DNA of 55,741 nucleotides, taken from contig CANRYZ010000004.1 of the NCBI GenBank assembly GCA_947644365.1, positions 1 to 55,741 of the forward strand. Direction: 5' to 3'. The notes beneath the pieces are model-generated. The model was not told the origin of the DNA. It saw only the letters and a program-made list of their open reading frames with translations, and made no database searches. A program made the position numbers and the translations under genes. Shown piece after piece: positions 48,224 through 55,741 of the stretch. This DNA is from an uncultured Oscillibacter sp. Lineage in GTDB: Bacteria > Bacillota > Clostridia > Oscillospirales > Oscillospiraceae. The first letter of the stretch is position 1. Every line of letters begins with the position of its first letter.

Positions 48224-51200
48224 ATGAAACGCAAGACCATGGACGGCAACGAGGCCGCCGCCTACGCCAGCTACGCCTTTACCGAGGTCGCCACGATCTA
48301 TCCTATTACGCCCTCCAGCCCCATGGCGGAGCACGTGGACACCTGGGCCGCCAACGGCATGAAGAACATCTTCGGCCAGAGCGTGCGGCTCATGGAGATG
48401 CAGAGCGAGGCCGGGGCCTGCGGGGCTATGCACGGGTCTCTGGAGGCCGGGGCCCTCACCACCAGCTATACCGCCAGCCAGGGCCTCATGCTCATGGTGC
48501 CGCCCCTGTACCGCATCGCGGGGCAGCTGCTCCCCGGCGTCATCCACGTGGCCGCCCGGACCGTGGGCACCAGCGCCTTCTCCATCTTCGGCGATCACTC
48601 CGATGTCATGGCCTGCCGCCAGACGGGCTTCGCCCAGCTGGCCTCCTCCTGCGTGCAGGAGTGCATGGACCTGGCCGCCGTGGCCCACCTCTCCGCCATC
48701 AGGAGCCGGGTGCCCTTCATGCACTTCTTCGACGGCTTCCGCACCTCCCACGAGATCCAGAAGATCGACGTGCTGGACTACGGCGATTTGGCCAAGATGG
48801 TGGACCGGGAGGCCCTGGACCGCTTCCGGGCCAACGCCCTGAACAGCGAGCACCCCCTCATGCGCTCCACCGTCATCAACCCGGACACGGCCTTCCAGCT
48901 CCGGGAGGCGGTGAACCCCTACTACGACGCCGTCCCCGGCATCGTGGAGGACTACATGGCCCGGATGTCCGCCCTGACGGGCCGGGACTACAAGCTCTTC
49001 AACTACTACGGAGCCCCGGAGGCGGAGCAGGTGGTGGTGGCCATGGGCAGCGTGTCCGGCTGTCTCCAGGAGGTGGTCGGGCATCTGAATGCCCAGGGCC
49101 GGAAGGTGGGCTTCCTCCAGGTGCGGCTGTACCGTCCTTTCAGCGCCGCCCATTTCCTGGCCGCCCTGCCGGGGAGCTGCCGCCTGCTGACGGTGCTGGA
49201 CCGCACCAAGGAGCCCGGCGCCGGGGGTGAGCCCCTGTACAAGGACGTATGCTCCGTCCTCCAGCACGGCAGCCGCCAGGTCCAGGTGCTGGGCGGGCGC
49301 TACGGCCTGTCCAGCAAGGACGTCACCCCCGCCCAGATGATCGCCGTGTACGACAACATGGCCGGGGAGCAGCGGGACCACTTCACCGTGGGCATCACCG
49401 ACGACGTGACGTTCCACTCCCTGCCCGTAGGGGAGAACGTGGTCACGGCGGACAGCCGGACCATCAGCTGCAAATTCTGGGGCCTGGGGTCCGACGGCAC
49501 CGTGGGCGCCAACAAAAATTCCATCAAGATCATCGGGGACAACACAAACCAGTACGTCCAGGCCTACTTTGAGTACGACACCAAGAAGTCCGGCGGCGTC
49601 ACCAAGAGCCACCTGCGCTTCGGCCATACGCCCATCCTCTCCACCTATTACGTCACCATGGCGGACTTCATCGCCTGCCACAACCAGAGCTACATCGCCA
49701 AGTACGACATTGTCAATGAGCTGAAGCCCGGCGGCACCTTCCTGCTGAATTGCAGCTGGTCCGACGGGGATTTGGAGGCCCGTCTGCCGAATAAGGTCAA
49801 GCGCCTTCTGGCGGAGCGGAAGGCGAAATTCTACACCATCGACGCCAACGCCGCCGCCGAGGCCATCGGCCTGGGAAACCGGACCAACAGCGTCCTCCAG
49901 GCCGCCTTCTTCAAGCTCTCCGGCGTGCTGCCGGTGGAGGATGCCGTGGACTACATGAAGTCCGCCATCCGTAAGACTTACGGCCGCAAGGGCGACAAGG
50001 TGGTAAACATGAACTGCGCCGCCGTGGACGCGGGGCTCACCGGGCTCCGCGAGATCCCCGTTCCCGCCGCCTGGGCGGACCTCACCGACGAGCCGGAGCC
50101 GCAGGACACCACGTCCCCCTGGTACGTCCGCACGGTGATGCGGGCCGTCAACGCCCAGAAGGGCGACAGCCTTCCCGTCAGCGTCTTCAAGGACGCGGCG
50201 GACGGCAGCGTGCCCATGGCCACCTCGAAATACGAGAAGCGGGGCTTTGCCTCCCACGTGGCCAGCTGGATTCCTGAAAACTGCGTGGGCTGCAACCTGT
50301 GCTCCCTCATGTGCCCCCACGCCGCCATCCGGCCCTTCCTCTTAAACGAGGAGGAGGTCCAAAAGGCCCCGGCGGACTATGTCACCAAGGAGGCCCGGGG
50401 CAAGGGCTTTGAGGGCCTGCGGTACCGCATTCAGGTAGACCCCCTGGACTGCACCGGCTGCGGCACCTGCGCCGCGGCGTGCATCGCCAGGGAGAAGGCC
50501 ATCGTCATGAAGCCCATCGAGGAGGAGATGCCCCAGCAGCTGGGCTGGGACTACAGCCTCTCCCTCTCCCCCAAGGAAAACCCCATGAGCAAATTCACCG
50601 TCAAGGGCAGCCAGTACGAGCAGCCCCTGCTGGAATTCTCCGGGGCCTGCGCCGGCTGCGGCGAGACGCCCTACATGAAACTCCTGACCCAGCTCTTCGG
50701 CGAGCGGATGGTGGTGGCCAACGCCACGGGCTGCACCCAGGCCTGGGGATTCAGCGTCCCCAGCTACCCCTACACAACAAAACCCAACGGCCGAGGGCCA
50801 GCCCTCTCCAACTCCCTCTTTGAGAACAACGCCGAATACTCCCTGGGCATGGTCCTCAGCGTCCGCCAGCAGCGTCTGCGGCTGAGAAACGATGTGGAGT
50901 CCCTGCTGGAGGAGACCCGGGACGAATCGCTGAAAGCCGCCCTGGCCGCCTGGCTGGAGGGATTTGAGGACAAGGACCGGACCATCGCCCTCAGCGACAC
51001 GGTCATCACCGCCCTGGCCGCCAGCCCCGAGACCGGGGAGAAGATCGAGGCCGTCCGCCGGGCCCAGGACCAGCTGGTGAAGAAGAGCATGTGGATGTAC
51101 GGCGGCGACGGCTGGGCCTACGACATCGGCTACGGCGGGCTGGACCACGTACTGGCCTCCGGGGAGGACGTGAACATTCTGGTGGTGGACACGGAGGTAT

Positions 51201-51796
51201 ACTCCAACACCGGCGGACAGTCCTCCAAGGCCACGCCCTTCGGCGCGGTGGCTCAGTTTGCCGCCGCGGGCAAGCGGACGGAGAAGAAGGACCTGGGGAT
51301 GCTGGCGTCCCAGTACCAGAACGTGTATGTGGCCTCTGTGGCCCTGGGGGCGGACCCCGCCCAGTACATCAAGGCCCTGCGGGAGGCGGAGGCCCACGAC
51401 GGGCCGTCCCTGATCGTGGCCTACGCGCCGTGCATCAACCACGGCATCGTCAAGGGCATGGCCTGGGCCCAGGAGGAGGCCAAGCTGGCCATCAAGAGCG
51501 GCTATTGGGTCCTCTACCGCTATGACCCCAAGCGGAAGGCGGAGGGGAAGAACCCCTTCATGCTGGACTTCAAGGACCCCAAGTACGACCTGCGGGAGTT
51601 CTTCATGGGCGAGGTCCGGTTCAACTCCCTCCAGCGGACCTTCCCCGAGGCGGCGGAGGCCCTGCTGGCGGAGGCCCGGAACCAGTGCCGCAACCGCTGG
51701 GCCCGCTACACTCACCTGGCGGCCCAGGACTACTCCCGCCTGCTGGACGTGCTGGAGGACTATCCCATTACGGAGCAGGCGAAGAGCGCGGAGTGA
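48224..51796 (+). CDS. nifJ: Pyruvate:ferredoxin (flavodoxin) oxidoreductase
   Basis: 1190 aa, normal for single-chain PFOR, which oxidises pyruvate to acetyl-CoA, CO2 and reduced ferredoxin. Visible are the N-terminal domain I (YPITPSSPMAEHVDTW, FGDHSDVMACRQTG), the two-cluster ferredoxin domain with CVGCNLCSLMCP (about 688-699) and CTGCGTCAAACIAREKA (about 745-761), and the TPP domain with FSGACAGCGETPYMKL and GDGWAYDIGYGGLDHVLASG ... DTEVYSNTGGQ. Good RBS AAGGGGGAG. All motifs are intact. Confidence 0.96.
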   Translation: MKRKTMDGNEAAAYASYAFTEVATIYPITPSSPMAEHVDTWAANGMKNIFGQSVRLMEMQSEAGACGAMHGSLEAGALTTSYTASQGLMLMVPPLYRIAGQLLPGVIHVAARTVGTSAFSIFGDHSDVMACRQTGFAQLASSCVQECMDLAAVAHLSAIRSRVPFMHFFDGFRTSHEIQKIDVLDYGDLAKMVDREALDRFRANALNSEHPLMRSTVINPDTAFQLREAVNPYYDAVPGIVEDYMARMSALTGRDYKLFNYYGAPEAEQVVVAMGSVSGCLQEVVGHLNAQGRKVGFLQVRLYRPFSAAHFLAALPGSCRLLTVLDRTKEPGAGGEPLYKDVCSVLQHGSRQVQVLGGRYGLSSKDVTPAQMIAVYDNMAGEQRDHFTVGITDDVTFHSLPVGENVVTADSRTISCKFWGLGSDGTVGANKNSIKIIGDNTNQYVQAYFEYDTKKSGGVTKSHLRFGHTPILSTYYVTMADFIACHNQSYIAKYDIVNELKPGGTFLLNCSWSDGDLEARLPNKVKRLLAERKAKFYTIDANAAAEAIGLGNRTNSVLQAAFFKLSGVLPVEDAVDYMKSAIRKTYGRKGDKVVNMNCAAVDAGLTGLREIPVPAAWADLTDEPEPQDTTSPWYVRTVMRAVNAQKGDSLPVSVFKDAADGSVPMATSKYEKRGFASHVASWIPENCVGCNLCSLMCPHAAIRPFLLNEEEVQKAPADYVTKEARGKGFEGLRYRIQVDPLDCTGCGTCAAACIAREKAIVMKPIEEEMPQQLGWDYSLSLSPKENPMSKFTVKGSQYEQPLLEFSGACAGCGETPYMKLLTQLFGERMVVANATGCTQAWGFSVPSYPYTTKPNGRGPALSNSLFENNAEYSLGMVLSVRQQRLRLRNDVESLLEETRDESLKAALAAWLEGFEDKDRTIALSDTVITALAASPETGEKIEAVRRAQDQLVKKSMWMYGGDGWAYDIGYGGLDHVLASGEDVNILVVDTEVYSNTGGQSSKATPFGAVAQFAAAGKRTEKKDLGMLASQYQNVYVASVALGADPAQYIKALREAEAHDGPSLIVAYAPCINHGIVKGMAWAQEEAKLAIKSGYWVLYRYDPKRKAEGKNPFMLDFKDPKYDLREFFMGEVRFNSLQRTFPEAAEALLAEARNQCRNRWARYTHLAAQDYSRLLDVLEDYPITEQAKSAE

Positions 51797-51819
51797 TTTC
51801 AGGGGAATGTACGAAAAGC

Positions 51820-51851
51820 GGGCGGGCCGGCTTTTGCCGGCCCGCCCTTTT
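51820..51851. terminator. Bidirectional terminator between PFOR and the recombinase
   Basis: GGGCGGGCCGGC-TTTT-GCCGGCCCGCCC, perfect 12-bp stem, followed by TTTT on the + strand and preceded by AAAA (which reads as U run on the minus strand). It ends both the nifJ and the recombinase transcripts. Confidence 0.85.
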
Positions 51852-51866
51852 GGTTCCAGCGGGAAG

Positions 51867-53534
51867 TTACAGGGACTTCTCGTAGGACTCGATCATCTTC
51901 TTGAACGTGTGACCCGTACGACTTCTTAGGTTGGCAAGGTATTTGTCGGTGGTCTCGCCGGTGAAAACCTTGATTTGCAATCGCAGGGAGCCGTCCTCCT
52001 CCGGGGTGGCGAAGATCTTGTCAATATACCTGTCCACAAACTCCTTGCTGATGAGGCCCTGGGCCGCGTCCCGCTCCGCCTCCCGGAGCACCCGTCGGAT
52101 GGTCTCAATCTGCTTGCGGAAATCCTCTCGGGACATTTGCTGCTGCTCCAGGTCGTAGATCTGCCGCTCCGCCTCGCTGATCTCCCGGTCACAGTCCTTG
52201 TTCATGGAGAGGAAATCCCGGTCGGAGAGCTGGCCCGCCGCGTTGTAGCCCAAGAGCTTGCTTTTCTTCTTTTGGACCAGCTCGATCTGCTGACGCAGTG
52301 TGGCGATTTGTCTCGCCGTGTCCTCCCCATCCCCCAGGACCTTGTACATCTCGATGTACTCCTCCACCAGGGCCTGGGCATCCGCCTCGGTCTCCCGGAA
52401 CACCTCAAACAATAACGGCTTCAACTCCTCCTCGTAAACGGGGAAGGAGGGGCAGCTATCCGCTCCATTTTTGATCTTCCCGGAGCACACCCACTTGCTG
52501 TTTTTGTTCCCATGCCGGTCCACCGACTCCCGGCGGTAGTAGGCTGCGCCGCAGTGGGTGCAGTAGATCTTTCCGGTGAGGAGGTTGGCGTGGTTGCAGA
52601 TGCCCTGACGGCCCTTCACGTCCTCGCTGCGCTTTTTCAATACGGCGTTGGCCTTGTCCCACAATTCCTCGGAGACGATGGCAGGAACGATCTCTCCGCT
52701 TTCGTCCTTGAACATCACCCACTCCTCCGGCGGGAGGAATTTCTGCTTCTTGGTAAACAGGTCGATGACCTTCACCTTATTGCCCACATAGTAGCCCTTG
52801 TACTTGGGGTTCGAGATCATGCCGGACATGGTGGTGTGGGCGATCCTTTTGCCGTTGTGGTTCCGATAGCCCTTGTCCCAAAACAATGTCTCAATCTGTT
52901 TCATGGAGCAGTCCCCGGTGGCGTACAGCTCGAACAGCTCCCGGACCATGGGGGCCTCGTCTTCATCGATTATCAACCGCCCGCCATCCTTGACGTAGCC
53001 GAAGATGCGGCTGTTGCCCAGCACCACGCCGTTTTTGATTGCCTGTGCATGGCCAAATTTCACACGGCCTGACAACTTGCGCAATTCATCCTGGGCGATT
53101 CCGGACATGATAGTCAGCCGCAGCTCGCTGTCCTCATCAAAGGTGTTGATGTTGTCGTTTTGGAAGAATACCCCTACCCCGGCGCTGAGCAGTTCCCGGG
53201 TGTAGAGGATGGAGTCCAGGGTGTTTCGGGCGAAACGGGTGATCTCCTTGGTGATGATGAGGTCGAAGAGGCCCGTCCTGCCGTCCTCCACCATGCGGTG
53301 GAAATCCTCCCGCCTCTTGGTGGTGGCGGCGGACAGGCCCTCGTCCACATAACCGGGGACATATTCCCAGGCAGAGTTTTTCCGGATGAACTCTTCGTAG
53401 TAGCTCACTTGGTTGCCCAGGGAGTTGAGCTGTTCATCGCTCTCGGAGGACACCCGGGCGTAAAAGGTCACCCGAAGAGGGATATCGTAGACGGATTTTG
53501 TGCGCAAGGCCTGACGAATGCTGTGTATATCCAT
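51867..53534 (-). CDS. Large serine site-specific recombinase
   Basis: 555 aa. The resolvase/invertase catalytic domain (about 20-170) has the nucleophile Ser29 in YARVSSES, then GLSAATTKRREDF and ITRFARNTLDSILYTR. A recombinase domain (about 185-290) and a zinc beta-ribbon with CTHCGAAYYRRE...CSGK...C (about 355-390) follow, and a coiled coil (about 420-500). It probably integrates and excises the mobilizable element it belongs to. Only 16 bases separate it from the PFOR terminator, so the element's left junction is close. Confidence 0.93.
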   Translation of the reverse strand: MDIHSIRQALRTKSVYDIPLRVTFYARVSSESDEQLNSLGNQVSYYEEFIRKNSAWEYVPGYVDEGLSAATTKRREDFHRMVEDGRTGLFDLIITKEITRFARNTLDSILYTRELLSAGVGVFFQNDNINTFDEDSELRLTIMSGIAQDELRKLSGRVKFGHAQAIKNGVVLGNSRIFGYVKDGGRLIIDEDEAPMVRELFELYATGDCSMKQIETLFWDKGYRNHNGKRIAHTTMSGMISNPKYKGYYVGNKVKVIDLFTKKQKFLPPEEWVMFKDESGEIVPAIVSEELWDKANAVLKKRSEDVKGRQGICNHANLLTGKIYCTHCGAAYYRRESVDRHGNKNSKWVCSGKIKNGADSCPSFPVYEEELKPLLFEVFRETEADAQALVEEYIEMYKVLGDGEDTARQIATLRQQIELVQKKKSKLLGYNAAGQLSDRDFLSMNKDCDREISEAERQIYDLEQQQMSREDFRKQIETIRRVLREAERDAAQGLISKEFVDRYIDKIFATPEEDGSLRLQIKVFTGETTDKYLANLRSRTGHTFKKMIESYEKSL

Positions 53535-53606
53535 GGCTCGTCTCCTTTGTAGTTCGTTTTATCATTTTTTATCTTGCAGTATATCACAGAATATGAAGCA
53601 AAGCAA

Positions 53607-53633
53607 GGGGGACCGCAACAATTGCGGTCCCCC
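53607..53633 (-). terminator. Terminator after the 53-residue gene
   Basis: GGGGGACCGCAA-CAA-TTGCGGTCCCCC, perfect 12-bp stem. On the minus strand it is followed by UUGCUUUGCUUC, a moderately U-rich tail. It lies just past the stop at 53640 and upstream of the recombinase gene. Confidence 0.7.
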
Positions 53634-53639
53634 TGTCTG

Positions 53640-53801
53640 TCAGGTCATGGTCATTTTCCAGCCATCGATTTTCAGCGCCATCTTATTGCGCTCCCGCTCC
53701 GTGATGACGCCCTTTTCATACAGCACCCGGTTGTAGTAGGACAGCCAGATCTTTGCCGCTGTCTCCTTCCTGCGCTGTTCAGTGGACTTTTGCTCAGACA
53801 T
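53640..53801 (-). CDS. 53-residue helical protein of the mobile element
   Basis: Too short to be called automatically: 53 aa, MSEQKSTEQRRKETAAKIWL to the end ALKIDGWKMTMT. ATG 53801 has GGAGGG 7 bases before it. It is charged and mainly helical, with the pattern YYNRVLYEKGVITERERNKM that recurs in small proteins encoded next to recombinases in Firmicutes integrative elements. Its function is unknown; an accessory role in recombination or excision control is a guess. Confidence 0.75.
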   Translation of the reverse strand: MSEQKSTEQRRKETAAKIWLSYYNRVLYEKGVITERERNKMALKIDGWKMTMT

Positions 53802-53895
53802 GACTGTCCCTCCATTCTATAAAATAATTTCCGTATTTTACCTGATTTATACGGCTGTCGATAGGCTTCTCCTTTCTTCCCGCACCAACGGGATA

Positions 53896-53927
53896 ACAAA
53901 AAGCAGACCATCATCACATGGTCTGCT
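53896..53927 (-). terminator. Terminator of the relaxase operon
   Basis: On the minus strand AGCAGACCAT / ATGGTCTGCT with a 6-nt loop is followed by UUUUUGUU. The stem overlaps the relaxase stop codon (53914-53916). Confidence 0.8.
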
Positions 53928-55215
53928 GCCAGGTTTGCTCCTCTTCATGGTCGTCCTCTTTGTGACCGAGGGCGATTTTCTTTTCCCGCTCTCTGCGGAG
54001 TGTCTTGCTGTCGGCGTGCTTGTGTGCAGTTGCGGCGTCGCTTACGGGAACAGGGTTGTCAGACCGTTCCAGAGCGTGGCCCAACCGTACCACAGTGCCA
54101 GCAATCCCACCAGCACCGTCGGAATCAATAGCCACTCCGGTGAGGGGCGGGGAAGTCGGATCGTTGGCAGGGAAAAGTGCTGCTCTCTCTTCTTCCCAGC
54201 CTGTTCCAACAGGCGGTGTATCTCCCTTGCCTCTCGAATCAATTCCGTCATCTGTTCCTGTGTCGCCCAGGGATTGGGCCTTGCGGCTATCTCCTCCAGC
54301 AGAAGCATCTGCTCCGCCAGGAGTTCTCCCATTGCCGTCAGTGCAGCGGTCAACCTCTGCCACTCCTCCGCTGTGGGATGCAGTGTCTCTGCTGGCGGCT
54401 TCTGCATATTCCGCCGGCGCAGCTCCTCCATGGATAACTGCCTGTCGGATTCTGAACTCAAGCTCCATCCTCTCCTTCAAATATTTTTCGTCGTGGAGCC
54501 GGTCGTCCCGGCATCTCATACCGCCGGGAGTGGTGTAGGTGATGCTCTTTCGGCTATCCGTCCAGCGGACATCATAGCCTTCGCTGCGCATCAGCGCAAT
54601 GAACTCCTCCCGGCTGCGGGCGTACCGCATACATGCGTCGATGGTGTTCATCAGCCGGAACTTCCAGCTCTCTCCTCTGGCTGCGGTGTGGTACTCCGCC
54701 CCGGACATAGACTTAACCTTTCGTCTTTTCTGAGGTTGGAACACCGGCAGACCGAACTCCATACAAACCTGGTCGTTGCGCTGGCGCAGCTGTGTCAGCT
54801 CCGGCTCACTGATGTGCAGTTTCTTTCCGTCCTCGAAGCTGACACTGTTGATAAGGAAGTGGGAGTGGATGTGGTCCCGGTCCACATGGGTGCAGACCAG
54901 AACCTCCCGCCCTTGGAACCACTTTGCCAGCTTCAGTGCGGCGGCGTGCGCGACGACAGGGTCAACTTTCTCGTCCGCCGGGAAGGACTGCACCATGTGA
55001 TAGAACATCGTGCCGCCCTCCTTGTGGTACAGCAGCTTGGTGCGCAGGAAGTCATCGTAGACGCTCTCCGGACGGCAGTTGATGCCACTGACCAGCTGGC
55101 GGCCCTCCCACAGTGTTTTTTTCTCCTGCTGTGTGTACCTTATCACCGCTCCCATACAGGCGCGGCTCTGGCCCTTGGGATAGTTGGTAAAGTGGATAAT
55201 GGCTATCTGTTCCAC
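53914..55215 (-). CDS. MOBP-like relaxase
   Basis: 433 aa from GTG 55215, overlapping mobC by 13 bases; the frame upstream of that (into mobC and beyond) is spurious. It nicks oriT and leads transfer of the single strand. N-terminal IHFTNYPKGQSR with Tyr in GAVIRYTQQEKK, and the three-His metal motif HVDRDHIHSHFLINS are diagnostic. The C-terminal third (from about residue 255) is low-complexity, charged and Gly/Ala-rich, and another protein is encoded there in a second frame. The relaxase lies in a mobC-relaxase order common in mobilizable elements. Confidence 0.9.
   Translation of the reverse strand: MEQIAIIHFTNYPKGQSRACMGAVIRYTQQEKKTLWEGRQLVSGINCRPESVYDDFLRTKLLYHKEGGTMFYHMVQSFPADEKVDPVVAHAAALKLAKWFQGREVLVCTHVDRDHIHSHFLINSVSFEDGKKLHISEPELTQLRQRNDQVCMEFGLPVFQPQKRRKVKSMSGAEYHTAARGESWKFRLMNTIDACMRYARSREEFIALMRSEGYDVRWTDSRKSITYTTPGGMRCRDDRLHDEKYLKERMELEFRIRQAVIHGGAAPAEYAEAASRDTASHSGGVAEVDRCTDGNGRTPGGADASAGGDSRKAQSLGDTGTDDGIDSRGKGDTPPVGTGWEEERAALFPANDPTSPPLTGVAIDSDGAGGIAGTVVRLGHALERSDNPVPVSDAATAHKHADSKTLRREREKKIALGHKEDDHEEEQTWQQTM
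54042..54461 (-). CDS. Membrane protein gene nested out of frame in the relaxase gene
   Basis: 139 aa read from TTG 54461 in a different frame of the same strand as the relaxase, entirely inside it. AGGAGAGG lies 7 bases before the TTG, inside the relaxase coding sequence. The sequence is protein-like: an N-terminal charged part (MEELRRRNMQKPPAE), a helical part (LTAMGELLAEQMLLLEEIA), and a C-terminal transmembrane segment (PTVLVGLLALWYGWATLW) ending LTTLFP. By contrast the relaxase frame over the same bases is low complexity. The arrangement parallels mobB within mobA of plasmid RSF1010, where the nested protein is a membrane protein aiding mobilization. Confidence 0.65.
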   Translation of the reverse strand: MSSESDRQLSMEELRRRNMQKPPAETLHPTAEEWQRLTAALTAMGELLAEQMLLLEEIAARPNPWATQEQMTELIREAREIHRLLEQAGKKREQHFSLPTIRLPRPSPEWLLIPTVLVGLLALWYGWATLWNGLTTLFP

Positions 55216-55520
55216 CTCCCACGCTCCTGGATCTCCCGCAGGGCGGCACTGATCCCGGCCAGCTCCTGTGTCATGCCGTCCAAGTTGGCGATACTGACAC
55301 GGCCCATGTTCGCCAGCATCGTCAGCTGGTTCAGGTTCCCGCCGATGGCCCGGAGCTGTTTGGCCACTTCTTTCAGATCTTCGATCACCACCACCTGCCG
55401 TCCCAGGCAGCAGCGGGTGACATAATCGCTCTGGGACATCCGGGCCTGCTTTGCTTTCTTCTTGATGGTATCCAAATCGCTGGACGCGATCCGGATACTG
55501 AATGTGGTGTCTTTGTTCAT
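55203..55520 (-). CDS. mobC: Relaxosome accessory protein MobC
   Basis: 105 aa. SIRIASSDLDTIKKKAKQAR is ribbon-helix-helix-like, and LKEVAKQLRAIGGNLNQLTM (about 48-67) is the MobC consensus. It helps the relaxase reach the nick site by extending strand separation. GGAGG is 5 bases upstream of the ATG, and its end overlaps the relaxase gene. Confidence 0.9.
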   Translation of the reverse strand: MNKDTTFSIRIASSDLDTIKKKAKQARMSQSDYVTRCCLGRQVVVIEDLKEVAKQLRAIGGNLNQLTMLANMGRVSIANLDGMTQELAGISAALREIQERGRWNR

Positions 55521-55741
55521 CGTTCCTCCGTTCTAAAAGTGGGTCCGGGCTTCTGTCCGGAAACTGCGTTTGGCAGGGCGACGGCGAAAGCCGGCGTCCA
55601 GACAAACGCGATGCTGGCTTTCTCCTAAAGGAGAAAAATTTTCCTTTTCCCATCTCGCCGCACAAGAAGGCAACCGGGCAGCGCCCTTAACACGTTACCC
55701 CCTTACCCTCTTGACCAGGATCCGATAGTCTGGCGTACCAG
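55521..55741. other. Probable oriT region, cut by the window edge
   Basis: 221 bases without a gene upstream of mobC, where oriT usually lies in such elements. It contains inverted repeats: TCCGG...CCGGA (about 55551-55561 around GGGCTTCTG), TTTCTCC-TAAA-GGAGAAA (55619-55636) and GGGCAGCGCCC. On the minus strand ATCCTGG, like the nick region of RP4-type oriTs, occurs at about 55715-55721. The exact nick site cannot be fixed from sequence. Confidence 0.4.

Follow-up and report, generated by a model that had tools for sequence, protein, structure and literature searches.

In a few mobilizable plasmids, a mobB gene is known to overlap the relaxase gene. In RSF1010, mobB lies within mobA/repB in another reading frame, and, according to passages of one report, the activities of MobA, MobB and MobC are essential for mobilization (PMC2200642). 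MobB is described, in a section of a second report that cites Meyer 2011, as having a C-terminal membrane domain and a MobA-interacting N-terminal domain and as raising the transfer frequency (PMC4655240), and a passage on ColE-type plasmids refers to MobB and MobD as ‘internally encoded’ (PMC9282650). Here we describe a gene that is fully nested within the relaxase gene of an integrative element from an uncultured Oscillibacter sp., a form that is new; the titles of the open-access literature surveyed report no nested gene in this relaxase family.

The window, i.e. the whole stretch of 55,741 nucleotides analysed (CANRYZ010000004.1), is one entire contig of an incomplete genome. At its right end, genes encoding MobC, a MOBP relaxase and a serine recombinase lie side by side on the minus strand (Table 1), in agreement with the integrative element of the original prediction; elements of gut bacteria carrying these three genes are classed as integrative mobilizable elements in the part of a study that deals with them (PMC12904643). 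Among the ORFs of 51867–55741 no coupling-protein gene was noticed on inspection, and Rfam gave no match within 51500–55741. Some 70 bases lie between the end of the recombinase gene and that of the neighbouring gene 48224–51796, which we take to encode a pyruvate:ferredoxin oxidoreductase. Similarity to related loci begins at 51845–51880 in six of eight cases, and the locus L011 is cut earlier; the neighbouring gene is also common to the window and L004 (Oscillibacter sp. 1-3). Between the relaxase and recombinase genes there is a short minus-strand ORF (53640–53801, 53 codons), presumably SHOCT-like, judging by eye from the motif.

Table 1. Features of the mobilization region at the right end of the window
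Feature	Position	Strand	Remarks
MobC/NikA-like relaxosome protein	55203..55520	(-)	overlaps relaxase start
MOBP relaxase	53914..55215	(-)	433 aa, GTG start, PF03432 E 3.4e-31
Nested gene (mobB-like)	54042..54461	(-)	139 aa, TTG start, frame +1 of relaxase
Shine-Dalgarno-like AAGGAG of nested gene	54472..54477	(-)	the relaxase’s own K-E codon pair
Codons for C-terminal hydrophobic helix	54051..54140	(-)	AlphaFold helix 108-137 of nested protein
Large serine recombinase of element	51867..53534	(-)	

The 139-codon out-of-frame ORF originally predicted inside the relaxase gene is indeed present: it is followed by a stop codon, starts over relaxase codon 252 of 433 and has its own predicted ribosome binding site, AAGGAG, 11–16 bases upstream of the start. 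The relaxase continues for about 43 codons beyond the nested stop, and this tail is conserved in most relatives. Its sequence (53917–54045) resembles KKIALGHKxDDHEEExTWQQTM, a type kept in most of 58 relatives and differing from the tails of L059, L061, L066 and L067. AlphaFold assigns a pLDDT below 50 to relaxase residues 264–401, which make up most of the overlap, and the nested gene thus sits in a part of the relaxase that is predicted to be unstructured. Measured by entropy, the proposed contrast between a protein-like nested frame and a low-complexity relaxase frame is mild, the values being 3.80 bits for the nested frame and 3.76 bits for the Gly/Ala/Asp-rich relaxase frame there (4.22 bits for the catalytic part of the relaxase).

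An open frame of this kind could in principle be a by-product of relaxase codon usage that arose by chance and yields no product. When synonymous codons were redrawn with the relaxase protein held fixed, the window’s nested frame still remained open in 113 of 2000 redraws, and that of one relative in as many as 743 of 2000, and so openness alone is weak evidence for a gene. However, none of the 2000 redraws produced a hydrophobic helix within the C-terminal 50 residues, where the window protein reaches its hydropathy peak of 1.71. The helix is kept in relatives, as are the start codon and selection on the nested frame, and the two-frame statistics already contradict a chance origin, to which we give next to no credence.

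The comparison with relatives is decisive. Of 400 genomes from the same family, 42, counting the source genome, contain homologues of the nested protein, with identities of 29–97% (own copy aside). Stop codons in the nested frame of related relaxase genes, which had been named as a point against the original prediction should mobilization be unchanged, are largely but not wholly absent: 58 of the 60 family matches lack them, and in L055 (one locus with L072, from genome G077) a TAG interrupts the nested frame, the relaxase frame being open, so that this natural copy would lack the full nested protein. L006 (Flintibacter muris) shows the reverse, an open nested frame and a relaxase frame that is open from roughly residue 180 onward only, while L004 (Oscillibacter sp. 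1-3, a cultured carrier) has both open. Across 68 loci – the window plus L001–L067, of which the window and L001 are the same place, with a few other repeats – the nested frame is always on the relaxase strand and in 67 cases in frame +1. L054 had been considered as a partial overlap and was rejected, being a frameshifted copy.

The start codon is conserved. Among 63 loci matched from the start onward (the window being entered twice, and the partial matches L054, L058, L062, L063 and L064 excluded), it is ATG in 29, GTG in 20, TTG in 11 and CTG in two, that is NTG in 62; the remaining locus reads AAA, its match beginning past its start. At the relaxase position over the nested start, nine different residues occur (Y, R, H, L, C, A, F, V and N), and yet the third base of that relaxase codon is T in 58 of 58 cases, as compared to 5–34% of T-ending codons for the same residues upstream. 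A Shine-Dalgarno-like stretch, judged by eye and with a loose pattern, is conserved ahead of the nested start codon. These features bear on the possibility that programmed +1 frameshifting appends the nested frame to the relaxase, yielding a membrane-anchored fusion and no separate protein. While the position of the frame, +1 and directly behind the catalytic domain, would suit such a mechanism, a frame headed by a conserved start codon and Shine-Dalgarno-like stretch would not, and many loci have an upstream stop, within about six codons, that closes the nested frame; we consider frameshifting very improbable.

To the selection acting on the two frames, for which the original prediction had proposed a test, we applied our own script, which sorts substitutions according to their consequences in each of the two frames, in the manner of OLGenie, with confidence intervals from bootstraps over codons. 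The nested alignment does not include L055 and L065, nor the duplicates L010 and L060. In 20 pairs with 70–98.5% identity, which share no sequence yet are not proven independent by descent (57 of 58 sequences, L036 being left out for its N bases and X letters), dN/dS was 0.31 (0.25–0.38) for the nested frame and 0.59 (0.49–0.73) for the relaxase frame. At 70–80% and 60–70% identity the nested values are 0.48 and 0.56, clearly below 1, whereas those of the relaxase, 0.90 and 0.91, no longer are. Purifying selection is thus seen in both frames, with that qualification for the relaxase of the more diverged pairs.

Controls in 16 pairs place the signal in the overlap: dN/dS in frame +1 is 0.27 (0.23–0.33) there, 0.87 (0.71–1.06) upstream and 1.06 (0.70–1.61) in the tail. 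Frame +2 gives 1.29 (1.08–1.59), 0.80 (0.67–0.97) and 0.60 (0.43–0.85), respectively, and since its upstream and tail values are also below 1, the method has some bias in regions where the relaxase is under constraint. Raw divergence in 17 pairs (L003 occurs in two pairs of both the 17-pair and the 16-pair set) shifts in the same region: at position 3 of relaxase codons it is 0.222 upstream, 0.087 in the overlap and 0.207 in the tail, at position 1 it rises from 0.059 upstream to 0.141 in the overlap, and in 14 of the 17 pairs the nested codons vary most at position 3. Both proteins are thus maintained by selection in related bacteria, and two frames selected over such divergence are good material for studies of dual coding. 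At the level of sequence comparison, we regard the ORF as confirmed to be a real nested protein-coding gene: a conserved mobile-element protein of Oscillospiraceae-like bacteria, encoded within another gene.

Outside the family, the nested profile matches 16 of 295 genomes of the order and six of 398 of the phylum, own genome included and some matches being weak or false; those at L088 and L089 lie inside long frames that look unrelated, and that at L078 is a 63-aa fragment. A search of 197 order and 299 phylum genomes with the relaxase catalytic domain only retrieved 25 distinct relaxases at E <1e-88. The genes of 24 contain an internal frame +1 ORF with a C-terminal hydrophobic helix (peaks 1.6–2.75), including L096, L097, L102–L104 and L122, where the nested-profile match is absent or marginal, and the remaining one, L101, is broken and lacks the nested ORF. 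No nested frame of such form was seen among the more distant relaxases examined, and in one of these, L107, the frame runs beyond the relaxase end.

The gene might be real and yet serve another purpose, for instance in entry exclusion, in regulating the host or the channel of the helper, or as a small membrane-active product, and simply travel with the relaxase. The role we assign below rests on architecture and position, and the second nested gene of ColE1, mbeD, is annotated ‘mobilization/exclusion’. However, a gene that stays with a single relaxase clade (24 of 25) across deep divergence, in a form unseen in the distant relaxases examined, suits a partner of the relaxase, and we therefore judge such other functions unlikely, if clearly less so than frameshifting.

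From N- to C-terminus, the window’s nested protein has the motif LSMEELRRRN, a helical central part, a run of basic residues and a hydrophobic helix. In the family the start is conserved as MSSESE..LSMEELK.RN, the central part is likewise helical, the basic stretch EQAGKKKERRFSLP.IRLP precedes the hydrophobic helix, and the latter, correctly foreseen as a membrane segment, is found in 54 of 58 members (at least 1.6 on a 19-residue scale). AlphaFold predicts helices at residues 11–19, 31–60, 67–90 and 108–137, with modest confidence (pLDDT 71.6, pTM 0.28). Basic residues mark the cytoplasmic side of a membrane helix (the positive-inside rule); here they lie before the helix and none after it, which suggests that the N-terminus stays inside. 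The window protein belongs to no Pfam (none at E 1), NCBIfam or PHROG family, and the plasmid and viral collections searched hold no relative; the 37 members of set A1 give scattered weak Pfam matches (3e-4 at best among the matches listed). Foldseek against the PDB returned no fold match at E 0.001, and a sequence search of solved structures returned six weak matches, the best of which (1e-4) is a designed protein.

From its MobB-like layout and its tie to the relaxase we infer that the nested product is a membrane anchor for the relaxosome. Ribosomes would start at the gene’s own NTG, behind the Shine-Dalgarno stretch formed by the relaxase K-E codons, and the product would most likely be a helical protein anchored in the membrane by its C-terminus. 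Its cytoplasmic part would bind the relaxase or relaxosome and keep it at the membrane, ready for uptake by the coupling protein and channel of a helper element, which is the part that MobB plays for RSF1010/R1162. We put the probability that the gene functions in this way – holding the relaxase or relaxosome at the membrane for a small integrative mobilizable element – at roughly three in four, which takes in its translation in the cell, the binding of the relaxase and a role in transfer. Such a protein would add a likely missing part to the use that small integrative elements make of the secretion channels of others. A coiled helix followed by a single membrane helix is a common architecture, which counts against reading the protein as a MobB.

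Among described genes, the closest in relaxase and start position are the mobB genes of pC221-like Firmicute plasmids (DUF334, PF03904), one relative of which is DUF6040 (PF19506). They overlap a homologous relaxase gene in frame +1, their start codon falls in the identical aligned relaxase column, a Shine-Dalgarno-like stretch lies over relaxase K-E/G codons and the product is helical with one or more hydrophobic segments. In contrast to the nested gene, they pass the relaxase stop, with 27–80% of their length overlapped (ten unsplit cases), whereas the window relaxase reads past the nested stop into its conserved tail. We inspected 16 plasmid records with related relaxases (L149–L158 and L162–L167; L156–L158 were chosen by their match to pC221 MobB). 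Twelve contain a frame +1 ORF running from behind the relaxase domain to past the relaxase stop and encoding hydrophobic segment(s), that of pC221 lying in an unjoined piece and that of L157 being judged by eye; L167 has a short gene wholly inside the relaxase and without a hydrophobic segment, and L153, L154 and L155 have no overlapping frame +1 ORF of mobB type. The mobB-type frames of L150, L152, L163, L164 and L166 are missing from the (incomplete) gene tables of these records.

In an alignment built with the relaxase profile of the nested-gene family, a start codon followed by an ORF of at least 70 codons is found at this column in 46 of the 55 rows in which the column is present (37 distinct places). 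Seven of the other nine have no start codon at the column and no overlapping gene of mobB type, L102 starts elsewhere and L072 has a stop; 38 further rows are gapped at the column, among them L158, L162 and L167, which have an overlapping frame. Pairwise, hhalign sets the start residue in line for pC221, L. fermentum and L107 with probabilities of 98–100%. Since they start at one and the same column of the relaxase, the nested gene and the mobB-type genes of Firmicute plasmids likely share descent. The proteins themselves do not align (hhalign of pC221-type MobB against the nested protein); PF03904 has no match to the window protein and none in G000 or G433. As the nested protein aligns to none of the known mob proteins, homology to their genes is argued from position.

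The likeness to RSF1010 from which the original prediction set out extends to architecture and nested position and stops short of sequence homology, none being detected between the two proteins (hhalign probability 0.8). The mobB gene of RSF1010/R1162 (IncQ, MOBQ) is likewise fully nested in frame +1 and encodes 137 aa; it starts behind the relaxase domain, over H-E, and its product carries a membrane segment towards the C-terminus (seen by eye and described in the section cited above, PMC4655240). In contrast, the relaxase is of another family and MobA continues as a primase. ColE1 mbeB (PF04837) is also fully nested in frame +1, starts over Y-E behind AAAGGAG and encodes a helical protein with a hydrophobic segment (by eye); ColE1 differs in having mbeD as a second nested gene and in its relaxase, which is HEN-type according to a passage of one article (PMC12857230). 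MbeB and the nested protein give an hhalign probability of 0.5, and the latter has no match to MbeB_N (PF04837).

ColE1 mbeB and IncQ mobB follow the pattern of the nested gene and the Firmicute plasmid genes, with frame +1, a purine-rich Shine-Dalgarno stretch over K/R-E/G and an ATG over Y/H-E. Their start column cannot be placed, since the relaxase alignments to the window family are too weak (probability 7.7 for ColE1, where other residues are set at the column, and 29 for IncQ, where the alignment ends before it). Whether relaxase-overlapping MobB arose once, long ago, or several times over can be tested through the shared start column. That RSF1010 mobB, ColE1 mbeB, pC221 mobB/DUF334, the DUF6040 proteins and the present family all go back to one ancestral overlapping gene seems to us a tentative idea, with the odds against it. 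On such an ancestry, the start codon and Shine-Dalgarno stretch would have become fixed within the relaxase codons that close the catalytic domain, at a time before the relaxase families diverged, and later drift would have touched no more than the extent of overlap and the sequence of the protein.
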